A DNA stretch of 56,687 bases from an uncultured Pseudanabaenaceae cyanobacterium (GTDB lineage: Bacteria; Cyanobacteriota; Cyanobacteriia; PCC-9006; JAAUQQ01), in contig CALLAT010000015.1 of the NCBI GenBank assembly GCA_938002085.1, forward strand, positions 1-56,687, given 5' to 3'. Within the stretch, counting starts at the first letter, position 1; each line of letters opens with the position of its first letter. Below the pieces are notes generated by a model. That model was not told where the DNA came from, did not search any database, and saw nothing but the letters and a program-made list of their open reading frames with translations. A program made the position numbers and the translations under genes. Shown piece by piece: positions 2,042 through 17,866 of this stretch.

Positions 2042-5000
2042 TTACAAAGCATCATCTGCTGGAAGATCGACTTGCTCTAGCAACTCTTCCTGCATCGCGA
2101 CCGGAAAACCACTATCCATAGCAGCTTCCCCCAAATACAACACCTGCTGACAGCGTGCTAAATAATGTTGCACCACAGGGTCCTGGGGACAATCCTCAGC
2201 ACAATCGGCAAAATGCTCTCGGGCGATCTCCACATCTCCCCCATGGAACAGTGACACCGCAGACTCGAACAACGCTCGGCTCGATCGCTTGGCAGCCCGT
2301 ATCTCCGCCGGATCGCTATTGTAGACTTCATACACATCCGTAAACCTAGAACGCCCCTTCACTTGCACCTGATCAATGCGACGAATCTCAAACTGCTCAG
2401 GATGGGCTAAATCCTCAAAGGTTTTCTGGGTGATTAATAGCGGAACCCCATAACGCTTCGTTAAGCCTTCAAGCCGAGAAGCCGCATTCACCGAATCGCC
2501 AATCACCGTGCCATCAATGCGGCTACTGCTGCCCACAGTCCCCAACATCATGTCTCCCGTATTGATGCCCAAGCCAATCTGGATTTTGGCATAGCCCTTC
2601 ATACTGCGCTCCATATTGTAGTGAGCCAGCCGCTCCAACATCGCCAAGCCTGCCGCCACAGCATCATCTGCTGAACGCTGAAACAAGGCCATGATGGCAT
2701 CGCCAATGTACTTATCAATGAAGCCGTTATTCCCAGTAATCGCAGGCTCCATTCGAGACAGATAGCCATTGATAAAGCGGAAGTTATCCTCCGGCGTCAT
2801 TCGCTCACTTAGGGTCGTAAAGTCCCGAATATCTGCAAACAGGATCGACATTTTTTGCAGTACCTGATCCCCAGCTGCAATATCTAGAATCGATTCTTTG
2901 TCTAATAGCTCTAAGAACTGCCGGGGCACAAAGCGATTCAGCGCCAAGCTCATATTGGCCAAGTACAAATGGGTTCGCAGTCTGGCCAGCAACTCCTGCT
3001 TGCGAATGGGTTTTGTCAGGTAATCATTGGCCCCTTCTTTTAGTCCCTCCAAGACATCGGCGACCTGGGTCTTTGCGGTCAGCATCAACACCGGCAGCTC
3101 ATTGGCGGGAAAGCGCTTGCGAATCTCGGCACAGACTTCGTAGCCTGTCATGCCCGGCATCATTACATCCAGCAGAACGAGATCGGGGCGATCGCCCTGT
3201 TCTAACAATGCCAGGGCCTCCGGTCCACTACTCGCCCGCACCAGCTCGTAATGTTCCAAACTCAAATGATCCACCAACACCTTCAGATTCACCGGCTCAT
3301 CATCGACCAAGAGAATCTTGAAGCATTGCTCATCTTTTCGGAAAGAGCGCCAACCGTTAGCCGGTGTAGACAAATCAGCCGCAGCCTTCTCTGCCGAGAG
3401 ATTCGCCGCTTCAGAAAGCTCAATATCTGCTGGCTCAGTAGACCCTAGGTTCGACTCCGCTGGAGGCAACATCGAACGCCCCTGCCATTCCTCTTCCTCA
3501 GCCACTGGCAAAATGTCGCCTTGAAGCTCCTGCCAGTTTGCCGGACATAGCGGCAGCGTAAAGCGAAACTGAGAGCCTTCATCTACCACTGACTCGACTG
3601 AAATCTTGCCCCCATGGAGCTCCACCAGTTGCTGGGTGACAGCCAGGCCCAGCCCCGTGCCGCCGTATTGGCGCGCCGTCGAACCATCTCCCTGCTCAAA
3701 GGAGTTGAAAATATAGTCCAGTTTGTCCGGTGCAATGCCAATGCCTGTATCGGCGATCGTCACCTGCACCTGGCCTGGTGATTCATCTGCTTGAGCGATT
3801 GCAACTCCCTCCTGAACCAGTGCCAGTAAGGTCACCGAGCCCTGGGGCGTAAACTTGATGGCATTGCCAATTAAGTTATAGAGAATTTGCTGGAGTCGAT
3901 TGGCATCGGCATAGACCAAGGGCAAGTCCATGGGAATGGCATTGACGATCTCCAATTTTTTTTTTGAGGAAAGCGAGGCCTGACTCAAGGTGATAATTAA
4001 ATCCACCATTGTTCGCAAACGCACCGGCCTCATTTGCAGCTCTAACTGCTGATGACGCAACTGAGAGAAGTCCAAAATATCGTTAATTAAATTAGCCAAA
4101 CGCCTGCCGCTCTGAGCAATCAGCGTCAGGTTCTCTCGCTGCTCCGGCGAAACAGGGCCACCCACCCCATCCACCATGGACTCCGCCAAGCCGATCATGC
4201 CATTGAGTGGGGTGCGCAACTCATGGGAGGTATTGGCCAAGAACTGATCCTTAATCGCATCCATCCGCGTCAACTCTTGGTTGGCCTCGGCCAGTTCAGC
4301 CGTCCGCTCAGCCACTTGCTCTTCCAGTTGAAGATTAAAATCCTTGAGCCGGTTGGCATAGGATTCCACTGTTGCCATCACCTGGTTATAGCGGCGGGCA
4401 ATTTTCCCCACCTCGGTAAACGGCTCTTCCGGCACCCGCAGGCTAAAGTCCTGGGTCCTAGCTTGCTGATCCATCACCTGAAACAGGTCATAGACTTCAG
4501 TCTTAGCCCCATGCTCAGAGACATTGAGGCCTAATTCTTCTTCCTCTAGGCTCACTCGCAGCGGTGTAATGCGATTTAGCAGACTGAGCAAAATGTAGCT
4601 AATGCCAAAGGCCCAAATAAAACCAACGCCCACGCCCAAAAGCTGGACGCCCAGCTGAGCATGGCGAGACAAACCCGTCCCCAAAACATCTAGCTGACCA
4701 AACAGGGCGACGGACAGCGTCCCCCAGGCTCCACAGGCTCCATGGATGGCAACGGCATCGACACCATCATCAATGTGCCAACGGTTCATGAGGTTCGTCG
4801 TCAAGAGCATGACTGCCCCACCGATCGCCCCAATCAACGCTGCCGAGGGCGTCGACATGACATTGCAACCTGCCGTAATCGAAACCAACCCAGCCAGAGA
4901 GCCATTGATCATGGTCTCGACGCGAGGCATTTTGTTGTAATACCAACCTAAAAGCCCTGCCGACAGCAAGCCCGTCGTGCCTGCCAAAATCGTTTGAACA

Positions 5001-5722
5001 ATAATGCGGGGAATTTGGTCGTCAAACGAGAGCGTGCTGCCCCCGTTAAAGCCCATCCAGCCCAGCCACAGCAACATGCAGCCCAACACTGACAGAGGCA
5101 AGTCAGAACCGTGAATCTCATTGGCCTTGCCATCCGGCCCATAGCGACCCGTGCGAGGCCCAATCACCAGCAATGCTGCCAGAGAGACCCAACCGCCTAC
5201 ACTGTGAACCACCGTAGAACCGGCGAAGTCAGAAAACCCTAGGGACCCTAGCCAACCACCGCCAACTATCCCATTGCCTAGGTCTTCGATACCATTCCAA
5301 GCCCAATGGCCAAAAATCGGATAAATCAAGCCTGAAATCATCAGGCAAATTAAGAGATAGAGGCTATAGCGAACTCGCTCTGACACAGCACCCGAAACAA
5401 TGGTTGTGGCCGTGCCACAGAACATCGCTTGGAACAGGAAAAAAGCGGCGAGGCGCGAAGAATCCGCCAGTTCTGGCGCGAAGTTAGAAGTTCCGACCCA
5501 ACCGGCCTGGGTCGCGCCAAACATGACTGCAAACCCGAATCCCCAAAACACCATCACAGAGATGGCAAAATCCGTTAGATTTTTAATCGCAACGTTAATG
5601 CTATTTTTTGAGCGTGTTAACCCCGACTCCAAACACATGAAGCCGGGCTGCATCAAAAATACAAGCCCTGAGCAGCCGACGAGCCAAGCAACATCAAGCG
5701 ACAATTTCACAATCCTATGCAC
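2042..5722 (-). CDS. Ammonium transporter-histidine kinase-receiver-class III cyclase fusion
   Basis: One uninterrupted 1226-residue frame. Residues 1-390 form a complete Amt/Mep/Rh fold of about 11 helices with the key pore residues: D165 in DFAGST, and pore histidines H173 and H327. Residues 400-465 are a HAMP-like segment and coiled coil. HisKA has H500 in TSHELRTPLNG. The HATPase_c domain has the N box (N620), DTGIGIA and QYGGTGLGL. An acidic linker (735-795) leads to a receiver with D852 in LLDVMMPG. A class III cyclase domain (955-1135) has metal aspartates D964 and D1008, plus K1004 and D1076, typical of ATP specificity. A TPR-like tail follows 1145. The start is GTG. Amt-kinase fusions and kinase-receiver-cyclase proteins (CyaC type) are known separately. 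Here sensor and cAMP output appear joined. Whether it transports or only senses ammonium is inference. Confidence 0.93.
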   Translation of the reverse strand: MHRIVKLSLDVAWLVGCSGLVFLMQPGFMCLESGLTRSKNSINVAIKNLTDFAISVMVFWGFGFAVMFGATQAGWVGTSNFAPELADSSRLAAFFLFQAMFCGTATTIVSGAVSERVRYSLYLLICLMISGLIYPIFGHWAWNGIEDLGNGIVGGGWLGSLGFSDFAGSTVVHSVGGWVSLAALLVIGPRTGRYGPDGKANEIHGSDLPLSVLGCMLLWLGWMGFNGGSTLSFDDQIPRIIVQTILAGTTGLLSAGLLGWYYNKMPRVETMINGSLAGLVSITAGCNVMSTPSAALIGAIGGAVMLLTTNLMNRWHIDDGVDAVAIHGACGAWGTLSVALFGQLDVLGTGLSRHAQLGVQLLGVGVGFIWAFGISYILLSLLNRITPLRVSLEEEELGLNVSEHGAKTEVYDLFQVMDQQARTQDFSLRVPEEPFTEVGKIARRYNQVMATVESYANRLKDFNLQLEEQVAERTAELAEANQELTRMDAIKDQFLANTSHELRTPLNGMIGLAESMVDGVGGPVSPEQRENLTLIAQSGRRLANLINDILDFSQLRHQQLELQMRPVRLRTMVDLIITLSQASLSSKKKLEIVNAIPMDLPLVYADANRLQQILYNLIGNAIKFTPQGSVTLLALVQEGVAIAQADESPGQVQVTIADTGIGIAPDKLDYIFNSFEQGDGSTARQYGGTGLGLAVTQQLVELHGGKISVESVVDEGSQFRFTLPLCPANWQELQGDILPVAEEEEWQGRSMLPPAESNLGSTEPADIELSEAANLSAEKAAADLSTPANGWRSFRKDEQCFKILLVDDEPVNLKVLVDHLSLEHYELVRASSGPEALALLEQGDRPDLVLLDVMMPGMTGYEVCAEIRKRFPANELPVLMLTAKTQVADVLEGLKEGANDYLTKPIRKQELLARLRTHLYLANMSLALNRFVPRQFLELLDKESILDIAAGDQVLQKMSILFADIRDFTTLSERMTPEDNFRFINGYLSRMEPAITGNNGFIDKYIGDAIMALFQRSADDAVAAGLAMLERLAHYNMERSMKGYAKIQIGLGINTGDMMLGTVGSSSRIDGTVIGDSVNAASRLEGLTKRYGVPLLITQKTFEDLAHPEQFEIRRIDQVQVKGRSRFTDVYEVYNSDPAEIRAAKRSSRALFESAVSLFHGGDVEIAREHFADCAEDCPQDPVVQHYLARCQQVLYLGEAAMDSGFPVAMQEELLEQVDLPADDAL

Positions 5723-8177: not shown

Positions 8178-10448
8178 ATGCAAGAGCCATCATCTCAGCC
8201 CCCCGCAAAGCAGAAACCCACACCAGAACGCAGGTATGTTGCTCGCTCGGTGAATGCGTTTGTTCAGTGGATGCCCCTGGGTGGGAGTGTTGCAGCCTTT
8301 ATTAGCTTCTGCTTCCAGCAAAGTTGGGCGCAAGCATTGATGATGTTTCCAGTCACAGCAGTGACTGGCGTTTGGGCTGCCTACAGCAAGAATTTTGTTG
8401 AGCAGCTCCAGACGATTTATGCGGAGCGGGGCAAAACCGATGCCCATCAATTTGTCGCTTTTCTGGACAGTCTCAATGAAACGGCAAAATGGCGATTTTC
8501 GGGCACAACCGGACATTATCTCAAGCTTGTTGCCAACCATTGTCGAGATTACACAACAGAAGGCTTTCGACCTGCGGGGTCAATTCCGCTGCTAGAAGAT
8601 GTATTTGTGCCACTACAGCTTAGCAATGAACTCCTGAGAGGAGCAGGTGGAGAAGTTTTGCCAATGCGGCCTAGTTTAGACACCAAGGGGAAAAGCCATC
8701 TTAGCCAGCAAGATGCTGGAGAAGTTGAACGACAACTACGTCGCAGGCAAGAAAAAGGCATTTCCATTTGGGAACTATTGCGGGAAGTACGACGAGTCCC
8801 AGCCTATCGTCAGCTCACCATCCTCGCTTGGGGTGGTTATGGAAAAACAACCTTGATGCGGAACTTAACTTACACCTTTGCCAAGGGCCGCCATCGCAAG
8901 CACAAAAGTCCAAAACTAATTCCATTCTTGATCTATCTACGCGATTGGAGAGAAATTCTATTGCAAGAGAAACCACCTAATTTACCGACATTAATCACCA
9001 ACCATTACATTCCTACATTACCCAACGGTGAGAGTTTGAAGCTGCCTCCAAACTGGGCTGTGGAGCTGCTAAGAAAAGGGGATGCTCTAGTGATATTCGA
9101 TGGTTTTGATGAAGTAGAAGAAAAGCCAGATAGCTTAAGCAACTGGATTAGCCAACAAATGCGCGAATACGATGAGTCAAATTTCATTCTGACCTCTCGG
9201 CCTGGTGGATATGCTCGCTACAGTGCAGAAAAGCCTCGAAGTGAAGTTCGTATCCACCCCTTTAATGCAAAACAACGCAAGCAATTTATCACGAACTGGT
9301 ATCTCTGCCAGGAGCGGTATCGACTACCAGGAAGGAAGAAAACCGAGATCTATCGCTCTGCTCATCAAGAAGCAACTGACTTATTGAACCAGTTCAACCA
9401 ACGCCAGGAGCTGCAGGAAATGGGACAAAACCCTCTCCTCCTCAACATGATTTTAACTTTTCATCGTTCATTCCCTGGGACAGAGCTACCTCAGCATCGG
9501 TGGGAACTCTATCGAGAGATTTGTCAAATACAGCTCGGAGCAAGACCATTAGCTCGAAACATTAATCTACTATTGCCCGCACAAGAAAGTCAGGAGAAAT
9601 TGCAGGAATTAGCTTTTCGAATGCAGGAATGCCATCTTCCTACAATCACCCGACAAGATGCCTTAAGCATATTAAAGTCAAATTTTAAATCTCAAAAGAG
9701 AAGTATCAAGGCAGACAAATTTCTTGATCACATGGTTGAGGTAAGTGAAGTATTGGTAGAGAAAGAAGCAAATAATTACGAATTTCTACATCTCAGTTTT
9801 CAAGCCTATTTGGCAGCAGGCTATGTACATAAAAACAAGGAAGAAGAAGCATCTCTAATTACACATTGGCCAGAAGACTGGTGGCGCGAGACAATATTGT
9901 TATACGCGGCACACAAGAACCCTTGTAGTATCGTTGAGCAGGCTATTCAGCATCATGGAACAGTTGCAGCAGACTTAGGATATGAAATATTACGTGAATC
10001 ATCATGGGATATTGATGCTGCCTTAGAAAGGAATGTAAAGCAACTTAGATACAGCCAATTAGAGCAGCTCCTTGTCGCTCAGAAGTGGTATGAGGCAGAC
10101 TTAGAGACATATCGACTGCTAGTAAAAACAGCGAATAAAGAGAAATTTGGAATACTTTGGCCAGACGACTTAATCAGACTTCCTAGTTGGGACCTACTAA
10201 AACTAGATGAGCTATGGAAAAGACATAGCGAAGGAAAATTTAGTTTTAGTATTCAGAAAAAGATATGGAATGAATGCGGCTGCCCATTCTCAGGCTTTAG
10301 CAAAGACTGGGAAGAGTTTAGCAATAAAGTCCACTGGGGCAAACCTATTACTGGTTTAAGCTACCAAGAGCTGAAACCCGGACATTTTCCTCGTCGATGG
10401 AGATGTTCTTCATTCAACGTACACTTATTCTCACGAAAGGATCTATAA
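8178..10448 (+). CDS. NACHT NTPase with C-terminal GUN4 domain
   Basis: A 756-residue STAND-type protein. Residues 25-70 carry two hydrophobic stretches that could anchor it in a membrane. The NACHT domain follows: Walker A GGYGKTTL at 219-226, Walker B LVIFDGFDEVEE around 304-315 and the sensor-like ILTSRPGGY at 337-345. A helical region reaches EFLHLSFQAYLAAGY near 535-549. Residues 622-745 match the GUN4 fold pattern (YSQLEQLLVAQKWYEAD, then DLLKLDELWKRHSEGKFSFS and IQKKIWNECG). GUN4 binds protoporphyrin and Mg-protoporphyrin and activates Mg-chelatase; here it is likely a ligand-sensing module. NACHT proteins are often antiphage or death-type switches. No HIP1 octamer is seen in the gene and its 3' half is AT-rich, which suggests transfer. 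Confidence 0.88.
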   Translation: MQEPSSQPPAKQKPTPERRYVARSVNAFVQWMPLGGSVAAFISFCFQQSWAQALMMFPVTAVTGVWAAYSKNFVEQLQTIYAERGKTDAHQFVAFLDSLNETAKWRFSGTTGHYLKLVANHCRDYTTEGFRPAGSIPLLEDVFVPLQLSNELLRGAGGEVLPMRPSLDTKGKSHLSQQDAGEVERQLRRRQEKGISIWELLREVRRVPAYRQLTILAWGGYGKTTLMRNLTYTFAKGRHRKHKSPKLIPFLIYLRDWREILLQEKPPNLPTLITNHYIPTLPNGESLKLPPNWAVELLRKGDALVIFDGFDEVEEKPDSLSNWISQQMREYDESNFILTSRPGGYARYSAEKPRSEVRIHPFNAKQRKQFITNWYLCQERYRLPGRKKTEIYRSAHQEATDLLNQFNQRQELQEMGQNPLLLNMILTFHRSFPGTELPQHRWELYREICQIQLGARPLARNINLLLPAQESQEKLQELAFRMQECHLPTITRQDALSILKSNFKSQKRSIKADKFLDHMVEVSEVLVEKEANNYEFLHLSFQAYLAAGYVHKNKEEEASLITHWPEDWWRETILLYAAHKNPCSIVEQAIQHHGTVAADLGYEILRESSWDIDAALERNVKQLRYSQLEQLLVAQKWYEADLETYRLLVKTANKEKFGILWPDDLIRLPSWDLLKLDELWKRHSEGKFSFSIQKKIWNECGCPFSGFSKDWEEFSNKVHWGKPITGLSYQELKPGHFPRRWRCSSFNVHLFSRKDL

Positions 10449-10679: not shown

Positions 10680-11324
10680 TTAAAGAGTGAAGCTCTTAAA
10701 GCTCCTACTCAAAAGTAATTCGGCAATCGCGATAGGTCTTGTGATGAATCCCATGGCCATAGCTGGTGTGCGCTTTCCGCCCTGTCCCCAATGAGGTCGA
10801 ACCCAGTTGTGTATCAATCTCTGCACATTCAAAGCTCGCTGTAATCCATCCAAGTGCTTGGCATAGTGGTTTTGACGACGACGATAGGCTGTCGCTTTAC
10901 GCCTCAAGGCACTGTTGTGAGCTTCATTATGATTGGCATGGACCTCTGACTTGGCGCTGATGGCCGTGTAAGGATGGGTGACCTTCACCCACTCCACCCG
11001 GGGCTTTCCCTGGGAGCCTTTGATTTTCATCGCCACTTCCAATCCCTCACGCCACACCTTGCAATAAGGAAACGCTGCGGGTGTAGCAATCGCTGGCAGG
11101 TAGATGCTCGCTGACTTCCACAGTTCATTCCCGTAGCGCCGTTCCCCATCTGTGAACCACCGAATAAACTGACTCGGCTCAGCCCAATCCCAGGCGGCTT
11201 TAACCCCCAATTCAAACAACTCTGCATCTTTCAGACCCGCTCGTGCTTCTACCCAATAGCGGCTGTCTCGTTCGAGAAAGTGAATCGTCCAACCTTCGCT
11301 CTCACTGGGGGGAAAGGTTCTCAC
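10680..11324 (-). CDS. IS1-family transposase, catalytic (InsB-like) part
   Basis: A 214-residue frame carrying the second half of an IS1-type DDE transposase. Recognisable pieces are WTIHFLERDSRYWVEARAG, FTDGERRYGNELW, EVHANHNEAHNSALRR, and IHNWVRPHWG near the end. The first catalytic acidic segment (LEGDEVYTRV) is encoded in the upstream frame. The frames overlap by 23 nt across a CTTTCCCCCC run and are offset by one base, so a single protein needs a +1 shift. Related transposases seem to read continuously here (ENLPPS), so an extra base in the run is the simpler explanation. It may therefore be inactive. Confidence 0.8.
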   Translation of the reverse strand: MRTFPPSESEGWTIHFLERDSRYWVEARAGLKDAELFELGVKAAWDWAEPSQFIRWFTDGERRYGNELWKSASIYLPAIATPAAFPYCKVWREGLEVAMKIKGSQGKPRVEWVKVTHPYTAISAKSEVHANHNEAHNSALRRKATAYRRRQNHYAKHLDGLQRALNVQRLIHNWVRPHWGQGGKRTPAMAMGFITRPIAIAELLLSRSFKSFTL

Positions 11325-11685
11325 TCACTCGAGTGTAGACTTCATCTCCCTCTAGGGTTACGCTCCCTCCCGCTGGAGCAGACGGTGACCAATTCTCTAA
11401 ATGGGCCGATAAGCGCTCCTCCCATAACGTAATACTGCTGGGGGATTTGCCGAAAACCCTGGCTGTCGCTCGAATCCCCAATCCTTCACTTCGGCTCGTC
11501 ATTGCCCTCCCTATCTCTTCGGCAGACGTTCGTAGACGTGCCATTGGGGTTCCACTCACCTCATTAAAGCGGCGACCGCAGCCATTGCATTTGTAACCCT
11601 GTCGCACCTGCCCTGTCTTCAAGGTTTTAGTACCGTTCTTGACGATGGCTTCGCTTACACAATAGAGACAAGTCATATCTGCCAA
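11302..11685 (-). CDS. IS1-family transposase, N-terminal (InsA-like) part
   Basis: A 127-residue frame with a zinc-ribbon, CLYC then CNGCGRRF, followed by an HTH-like segment (EEIGRAMTSRSEGLGIRATARVFG) that would bind the IS ends. It ends with LEGDEVYTRVSENLSPQ; the DEVY segment should be the first catalytic Asp region of the DDE domain. The frame then stops, and the reading continues one base off in the next ORF. It is either a programmed frameshift pair or a single-base indel. Confidence 0.8.
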   Translation of the reverse strand: MADMTCLYCVSEAIVKNGTKTLKTGQVRQGYKCNGCGRRFNEVSGTPMARLRTSAEEIGRAMTSRSEGLGIRATARVFGKSPSSITLWEERLSAHLENWSPSAPAGGSVTLEGDEVYTRVSENLSPQ

Positions 11686-17158: not shown

Positions 17159-17866
17159 TTAGCGGCGACTCATACTCATGACGATGCGCAGGACATACCA
17201 GAACAACAGCGCCACAGAAGCAAATAGCTCCAGTGAGGCCGCCACGTGATGGCGCGTGGAGTAATGCTTCATCACCTTAGAGGTGTCATACAGAATTGCC
17301 ATGGAAGCAAACGCAACCATCGCCGCAGAGAAGAAAAGCCCAAGATTAAAACCAAACAGGGCACCGCAAACCATCACGCCTAAGGCCACAAATCCACCAA
17401 TGCGCAAAAACCCGCCAAGAAAGGAGAAATCCTTCTTAGTCGTGAAAGCAATCATGGTCAGACCGCCAAACATTGCCAGTGTCAAACCTGCAGCAGTGGT
17501 GAGAATATTTTCTGTATTCGGGAATAGCTGAGCTTGGGCAATGAGAGGAACAAAGAGAAATGCCTGGACAAGGATGTAAATTCCTAAACCGGTATATTGC
17601 AGATTCTCGTTATCTGCTTTTGCTGTTAAACCTCGCGCCATCCAGCCGATGAGGGAGAAGGCCCCCATAACGACCAGCCACCCAATTCTTCCACTACTAA
17701 AGATGGCAGCCGCGATGACATCAGCTATGCCGGTTTGGAAAAGGATGTACTCGACCAAAGCAAAGGCCAAAACGGCCCCAGCAACATGGACATAGGTTTT
17801 ACGAATGAATCCAGCCCGCTCCTGGGCAGGGGCTTGAGCCACGGACAGCATGGGCATTACTTTCAA
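17159..17866 (-). CDS. Bax inhibitor-1/YccA family membrane protein
   Basis: A 235-residue protein with seven predicted membrane helices, the BI-1 pattern. Family hallmarks are the loop FTTKKDFSFLGGFL between helices 4 and 5, the ILYDTSKVMKHY segment in the second-last region, and the short basic C-terminus. Bacterial members are pH-sensitive calcium-leak channels (BsYetJ) or FtsH modulators (YccA). The residues after the ATG (MKVMPMLSVAQAPAQERAG) are a short cytosolic tail. It has its own terminator and AGGAG-like sequence upstream. The family assignment is firm; the role in this organism is unknown. Confidence 0.92.
   Translation of the reverse strand: MKVMPMLSVAQAPAQERAGFIRKTYVHVAGAVLAFALVEYILFQTGIADVIAAAIFSSGRIGWLVVMGAFSLIGWMARGLTAKADNENLQYTGLGIYILVQAFLFVPLIAQAQLFPNTENILTTAAGLTLAMFGGLTMIAFTTKKDFSFLGGFLRIGGFVALGVMVCGALFGFNLGLFFSAAMVAFASMAILYDTSKVMKHYSTRHHVAASLELFASVALLFWYVLRIVMSMSRR

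Follow-up and report, generated by a model that had tools for sequence, protein, structure and literature searches.

The window analysed here is a stretch of 56,687 nucleotides from an uncultured Pseudanabaenaceae cyanobacterium. One of its genes encodes a NACHT NTPase that ends in a GUN4 domain. An earlier note on this DNA had read the protein as a sensor of tetrapyrrole level or light-driven porphyrin stress that triggers a NACHT response. The locus raises the question of what such a GUN4 domain recognises.

Domain architecture of the NACHT-GUN4 protein

The profile searches confirmed the fusion described in the earlier note. Both the NACHT score (55.8 bits, cut-off 26.7) and the GUN4 score (87 bits, cut-off 29.2) of the window protein were well over the Pfam cut-offs. 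The PDB matches were exclusively GUN4-type structures and covered residues 620–738. The Walker A, Walker B, and sensor motifs were intact, as had been noted; they aligned with those of 17 homologues, in which they are kept together with the arginine of the sensor. A NACHT/STAND switch fused to GUN4 also agrees with the GUN4 fusions placed among cyanobacterial conflict systems by Kaur et al. (2020, PMC7159879; 2021, PMC8195603). The features of the gene are given in Table 1.

Hydropathy recovered the two hydrophobic N-terminal stretches of the earlier description at residues 27–46 and 50–69. They are moderately hydrophobic, with a best 19-residue Kyte-Doolittle value of 1.45. The hairpin lies ahead of the NACHT domain, its position is kept in most homologues, and it may be the effector of the protein. 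The AlphaFold prediction of the full window protein with one relative had a mean pLDDT of 35, which is too low for use.

Table 1. Features of the NACHT-GUN4 gene in the window.
Feature	Position	Strand	Residues	Basis and remarks
NACHT-GUN4 fusion gene	8178..10448	+	756 aa	ATG start, ORF exact
N-terminal hydrophobic hairpin, putative membrane effector	8247..8384	+	24-69	Hydropathy and homologue pattern PLGGS...W(A)xY
NACHT NTPase domain	8835..9299	+	220-374	Pfam PF05729, E 6.4e-15
Walker A, AWGGYGKTT	8826-8852	+	217-225	Motif alignment
Walker B, ALVIFDGFDE	9084-9113	+	303-312	Motif alignment
NACHT sensor, FILTSRPGGY	9183-9212	+	336-345	Motif alignment
GUN4 core, paralog type	10038..10352	+	621-725	Pfam PF05419, E 1.7e-24, profile 4-103 of 141
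GHFP, equivalent of GHLP, 5′ border of hypervariable segment	10380..10391	+		Alignment
RRWRCSSFNVH, position of hypervariable region, where housekeeping GUN4 has LxNxLR	10392..10424	+		Alignment; variability from relatives
LFSRKDL and stop, C-terminal tail, third-frame remnant of 3′ element (family L[LF]SRRDL and stop)	10425..10448	+		Protein level

Two other database matches were rejected. The PADLOC PD-T4-6 match was not taken as defence evidence because it was limited to model positions 299–411, which align with GUN4, and the kinase part was unmatched. The NCBIfam DS8 match reached 28.7 bits against a cut-off of 790. The PADLOC model itself (PDLC04062) seems to hold a GUN4-like C-terminal part at these positions, and it can flag kinase-less GUN4 proteins.

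Distribution and gene neighbourhood

The window protein was matched in 51 of the 386 genomes of the phylum at E 1e-20. ORF comparison placed NACHT-GUN4 fusions in approximately 25 of the 386 sampled genomes, with a compact form (about 750–830 aa) in approximately 15 and a longer form, extended by an insert ahead of GUN4, in approximately 10. Stops or frameshifts disrupted several copies, and GUN4 was missing from other relatives. The gene is thus patchy and dispensable, and the survey proposed in the earlier note found the fusion but not as a universal housekeeping gene. A separate full-length housekeeping GUN4 is present in the window's genome (G000:C78). In otherwise good genomes, stops or frameshifts also interrupt related genes of the NACHT-GUN4 or NACHT type (L043, L047, L049, L050, and L069), which suggests frequent loss.

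The same note had asked for the defence-island context of the fusion, and the neighbourhood proved ordinary. Upstream lie uvrC and, beyond it, an ammonium transporter/kinase/cyclase fusion; downstream lies an IS1-like transposase, and a DUF1400 hydrolase is also among the neighbours. No defence island was found among the window neighbours examined; such a location is usual for bNACHT genes but not obligatory. The transposase gene (window 11302–11685, minus strand) is an IS1-family-like N-terminal part, 0.9 kb downstream, that scored 41.5 bits and thus under the NCBIfam equivalog cut-off. The adjoining ORF (10680–11324, minus strand), which has no assignment, probably belongs to it and may be a broken remainder. 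The transporter fusion is a single ORF of 1226 aa (2042–5722, minus strand) with ammonium transporter, histidine kinase, receiver, and adenylate/guanylate cyclase domains. A Bax1-inhibitor family membrane protein (PF01027) is encoded at 17159–17866 on the minus strand.

A hypervariable segment after the GHLP motif

In the fusions, the GHLP motif is followed by a stretch that is nearly unique to each gene. A total of 52 distinct segments of 27–176 nt were collected directly after GHLP, and the length varies even inside one genome. Gene pairs were selected at no less than 85% identity over the 253 nt of upstream DNA. The 64 pairs had a mean identity of 0.89 upstream, 0.42 in the segment, and 0.84 in the 100 nt downstream, and shuffled segments gave 0.43; the pairs are non-independent and mix orthologues with paralogs, the synteny of close pairs is confounded by a downstream iterated repeat in one genus, and some pairs may be paralogs.

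Single comparisons showed the same pattern. The NACHT-GUN4 orthologues L047 and L049 were 96.6% identical in the 500 nt upstream, 40% in the segment, and 97.1% downstream; L048 and L049 have a common segment (90%). Two genes lying 8 kb apart on the plasmid NZ_CP060823.1 were 93.5% identical upstream and 98% downstream, and their segments of 70 and 38 nt shared 38.6% identity, which is chance level. Clear hypervariable GUN4 examples occur on named plasmids of Cylindrospermopsis and Nostoc. Cylindrospermopsis curvispora GIHE-G1 has an intact 3′ element, with the plasmid genes IAR63_RS17585 and RS17625 as examples. Assembly error is an unlikely source of the segments, since examples come from closed genomes and finished plasmids. 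Neutral drift is insufficient for their divergence, because the synonymous and non-coding DNA on both flanks is conserved. Siblings of the same strain had identical tails, as did two Stanieria plasmids, so turnover of the segment is not seen at the laboratory time scale.

The base composition of the segments is G 0.37, T 0.32, A 0.19, and C 0.12. The G/T bias is nearly equal at codon positions 1, 2, and 3, in which the segments differ from the upstream coding DNA. This points to a process at the DNA level rather than to amino-acid selection. No report of GUN4 hypervariability was found in the literature searched, which mostly excluded subscription journals and bioRxiv; two papers use both terms, but in unrelated senses.

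A conserved 3′ DNA element read in three frames

After the segment, the fusions end in one of three tails, namely SRxETCxL, SLASRLVNCxI, and LLSRRDL. The three tails are a single conserved DNA sequence, TCTTCTCTCGCGTCGAGACTTGTAAACTGTAACAT, read in three frames. Its conservation runs beyond the stop codons over approximately 125 bp, up to TACCTGGCAC. The use of the frames in 57 genes was 18/24/15, compatible with a uniform distribution (p = 0.33), and L001 has its stop codon ahead of the entire element. The element pattern gave 18 matches in 16 of the 59 genomes, all behind GUN4 coding sequence, and 0 in the reversed-pattern control; the seeds of this search favour intact elements. In L114, the ORF ahead of the match stops short of the segment. 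A second set contained three element copies without a recognised GUN4 ahead. The Rfam search of five element loci gave nothing convincing, and the element was absent from the viral contigs searched.

Several loci with unusual arrangements were seen. The 3′ element occurs without a recognisable GUN4 core in L153 (G245:C1:2961806), L160 (G245:C1:1099120), and L180 (G022:C1:3499963), and in the first two the G/T-rich segment before the element is preceded by the same hairpin repeat, cgacttcttcaagaagtcggggat. The proteins of L119, L135, and L136 carry two or three tandem GUN4 domains, and their internal 3′ elements are all in the SRVETCKL frame, open into the next domain. In the genus g14 (e.g., L121, L124, L165, and L203), several copies of iterated units AATCAGGATATCCAGGATTAAAGGATTTACAGGATGG... 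follow the 3′ element.

The GUN4-tip module was also found on kinases, caspases, a caspase-FGE protein, and a TPR protein, as expected for a common recognition module. We favour, with modest confidence, the reading that the window protein is a putative STAND/NACHT receptor of the conflict-system type with the GUN4 tip as its variable recognition surface. This reading draws on the order of hairpin, NACHT, and paralog GUN4, on the loss of the tetrapyrrole motif described below, and on the replacement of the whole segment in its family; this segment comes immediately after GHLP, is flanked by conserved DNA, varies in length, and is free in frame. Another explanation is that the GUN4 core is a protein-protein adaptor, with an inert variable tail and flanks that happen to tolerate any insert. 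We consider this rather unlikely: the conservation of the core helices and the FGFSVQK region next to a non-conserved tail would fit, as would fusions to many effector types, but drift alone cannot bring a segment to the shuffled level between flanks (synonymous and non-coding) that are approximately 84–97% identical. An inert tail would also not be expected to carry a conserved element that runs on past the stop codon.

The window copy

The putative receptor of the window ends in GHFP-RRWRCSSFNVH-LFSRKDL and a stop, and this tail has the layout of the hypervariable GUN4 paralogs (GHLP motif, segment, and L.SR-type tail). Compared by eye with the tail DNA of L047, 15 of 24 bases matched and 6 of the 7 sense codons were synonymous. 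The 3′ DNA element of approximately 125 bp was not found in the window at up to 3 mismatches, and none was found in the window's own genome, which is 63% complete. The sequence suggests that the window gene is a divergent member of the group whose 3′ element has eroded and survives as a peptide only; it is probably a frozen or ageing copy. The sole close orthologue (L001/L138, 65–66% identical) ends differently and has the element beyond its ORF, which is compatible with decay as well. Since no DNA element was recovered from the window's 63%-complete genome, the statements on active diversification rest on the relatives.

Possible origin of the segments

We speculate that the segment would be renewed at the DNA level, by G/T-rich sequence of random length placed at the GHLP border. 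The 3′ element would close each of the three frames within a short SR-type tail, and frame changes would thereby be tolerated. Any segment length may be tolerated: stop codons all require an A and are rare in G/T-rich DNA, and each frame is closed by the element. Some genes (L109 and L132) have tandem GHLP copies at the 5′ border, which is a hint of slippage or end extension there. Our tentative proposal is that cyanobacteria may carry out a targeted replacement in which the ligand-facing tip of GUN4 paralogs is exchanged for untemplated, G/T-biased DNA of random length, guided by the 3′ element that is read in all frames. The replacement proposed here would cover NACHT, kinase, caspase, and other effectors and would be unlike the known bacterial routes tested, with an outcome similar to antibody junctional diversity.

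The segments were searched for possible sources, and no enzyme that would carry out the replacement was found. Four segments (about 100, 155, 84, and 66 nt) were each found only once in their own genomes, a group that includes closed or nearly closed ones. Twelve segments had no match in phage and plasmid collections, and capture from the records in those collections was not supported. Shuffling of cassettes or gene conversion, with donor copies at other places in the genome, would be guided by the two flanks, which are common to many paralogs per genome. The congeners L167 and L192 have one segment in common, and the three element copies without GUN4 would fit donors of this kind. This origin is nevertheless quite unlikely, given that none of the four segments searched had a donor copy and that shuffling moves sequence and cannot create new G/T-rich segments of any length.

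Loss of the ligand motif in paralog GUN4 domains

The hypervariable segment occupies the place in which housekeeping GUN4 carries its ligand motif. In the alignment, housekeeping GUN4 reads L(S/L)NQLRG after GHLP, which corresponds to the motif LxNxLR. The motif was present in 31 of 31 housekeeping GUN4s and in none of the 77 paralog tails (0/27 NACHT fusions and 0/50 other paralogs). The window protein has no LxNxLR (Asn211/Arg214 in Synechocystis numbering) and carries hypervariable-type sequence in its place. Among the matches listed in the phylum scan, housekeeping GUN4 reached profile position 140–141 and fusion or paralog GUN4 stopped at 124–136; the window protein stops at 103. The earlier claim that the C-terminus matches the porphyrin-binding GUN4 pattern therefore stands for the GUN4 profile match itself and not for the end with the ligand motif, which is missing.

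By alignment and from the GUN4 structures, we take the Arg of LxNxLR to be the conserved Arg of Arabidopsis GUN4 that is linked to porphyrins. That conserved Arg is important for porphyrin affinity (PMC8967248). A Chlamydomonas GUN4 study reports that the Asn of the motif is required for bilin binding and lost in paralogs, and that the N219G protein has lost bilin binding and kept porphyrin binding (PMC10156173).

Tetrapyrrole sensing by the NACHT-GUN4 proteins is unlikely on these sequence comparisons, because LxNxLR separates the housekeeping GUN4s from the paralog tails completely, and the light-stress idea of the earlier note was not supported for the window protein either. Some points favour a NACHT switch gated by porphyrin or bilin bound to GUN4: the GUN4 fold is present in the window protein, tetrapyrrole sensing is proposed for GUN4 fusions by Kaur et al. 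(PMC7159879), and loss of the Asn alone would be compatible with porphyrin binding, as in N219G. We give this explanation little credence, since in all 77 paralog tails the entire motif is gone, including the Arg, and a fixed small ligand would predict a conserved site, whereas unconstrained sequence was found there.

Comparison with known systems

Housekeeping GUN4, the Mg-chelatase cofactor, has the core fold and GHLP in common with paralog GUN4; it differs from the fusions in being a stand-alone protein that occurs in nearly all photosynthetic cyanobacteria sampled and in keeping LxNxLR (31/31). Synechocystis sll1380 and other GUN4 paralogs also have no LxNxLR, and loss of sll1380 gave no gun4 phenotype; as far as the available text of this study goes, the paralogs are treated as bilin non-binders, and the hypervariable segment and 3′ element are not described (PMC10156173). 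The GUN4 conflict proteins of Kaur et al. likewise have GUN4 on kinases, caspases, TIR, STAND, and other effectors. In the accessible text of these papers, GUN4 is described as tetrapyrrole-binding, and neither the motif loss nor the frame-free hypervariable tail is reported (PMC7159879, PMC8195603). The bNACHT antiphage proteins resemble the window protein in having a central NACHT in a tripartite layout (PMC12169576). They differ in having a known effector enzyme and NCH1/SNaCT C-termini, whereas the window protein has a hydrophobic hairpin and GUN4 in these places.

The nearest functional analogue is the sensors of NACHT defences diversified by diversity-generating retroelements (DGRs), in which a hypervariable sensor is also joined to a NACHT/STAND switch (PMC10907252). 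A DGR target comes with a reverse transcriptase and a template repeat and changes by adenine-directed substitutions (PMC10907252). The GUN4 paralogs differ: the fold is that of GUN4, the segments vary in length and frame, no template was found, and some of the genomes have no detectable reverse transcriptase. RVT_1 was detected in 11 of the 16 element-positive genomes and undetected in 5 (Fisher p = 0.14), and frozen segments could persist without a reverse transcriptase. It is highly improbable that a DGR uses a template repeat to rewrite the segment. The position at the gene 3′-end and the conserved DNA element that follows it closely are reminiscent of DGR targets, and both the C-type-lectin sensors of NACHT-linked systems (PMC10907252) and cyanobacterial CLec proteins (PMC7517822) are diversified by DGRs, but the segments span 27–176 nt and three frames instead of a constant length and frame, have no fixed non-adenine positions, showed neither a template repeat nor a second copy in the four own-genome searches, and occur in the five genomes where RVT_1 was undetected.

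Model and implications

In the receptor reading that we favour, the GUN4 core would be a scaffold, and the variable tip would recognise changing ligands, most likely molecules of phages or other invaders. Ligand binding at the tip would release the NACHT switch. The released NACHT may then oligomerise and push the N-terminal hairpin into the membrane, which would lead to cell arrest or death. We infer every step from recognition to cell death.

If this reading is right, the published photosynthesis-sensor interpretation of GUN4 fusions would be wrong for this class of GUN4 fusions. A cyanobacterial genome would then hold up to about a dozen hypervariable receptors feeding kinases, caspases, and NACHT switches, and bacteria would have a second route, beside DGRs, for diversifying immune-type sensors.
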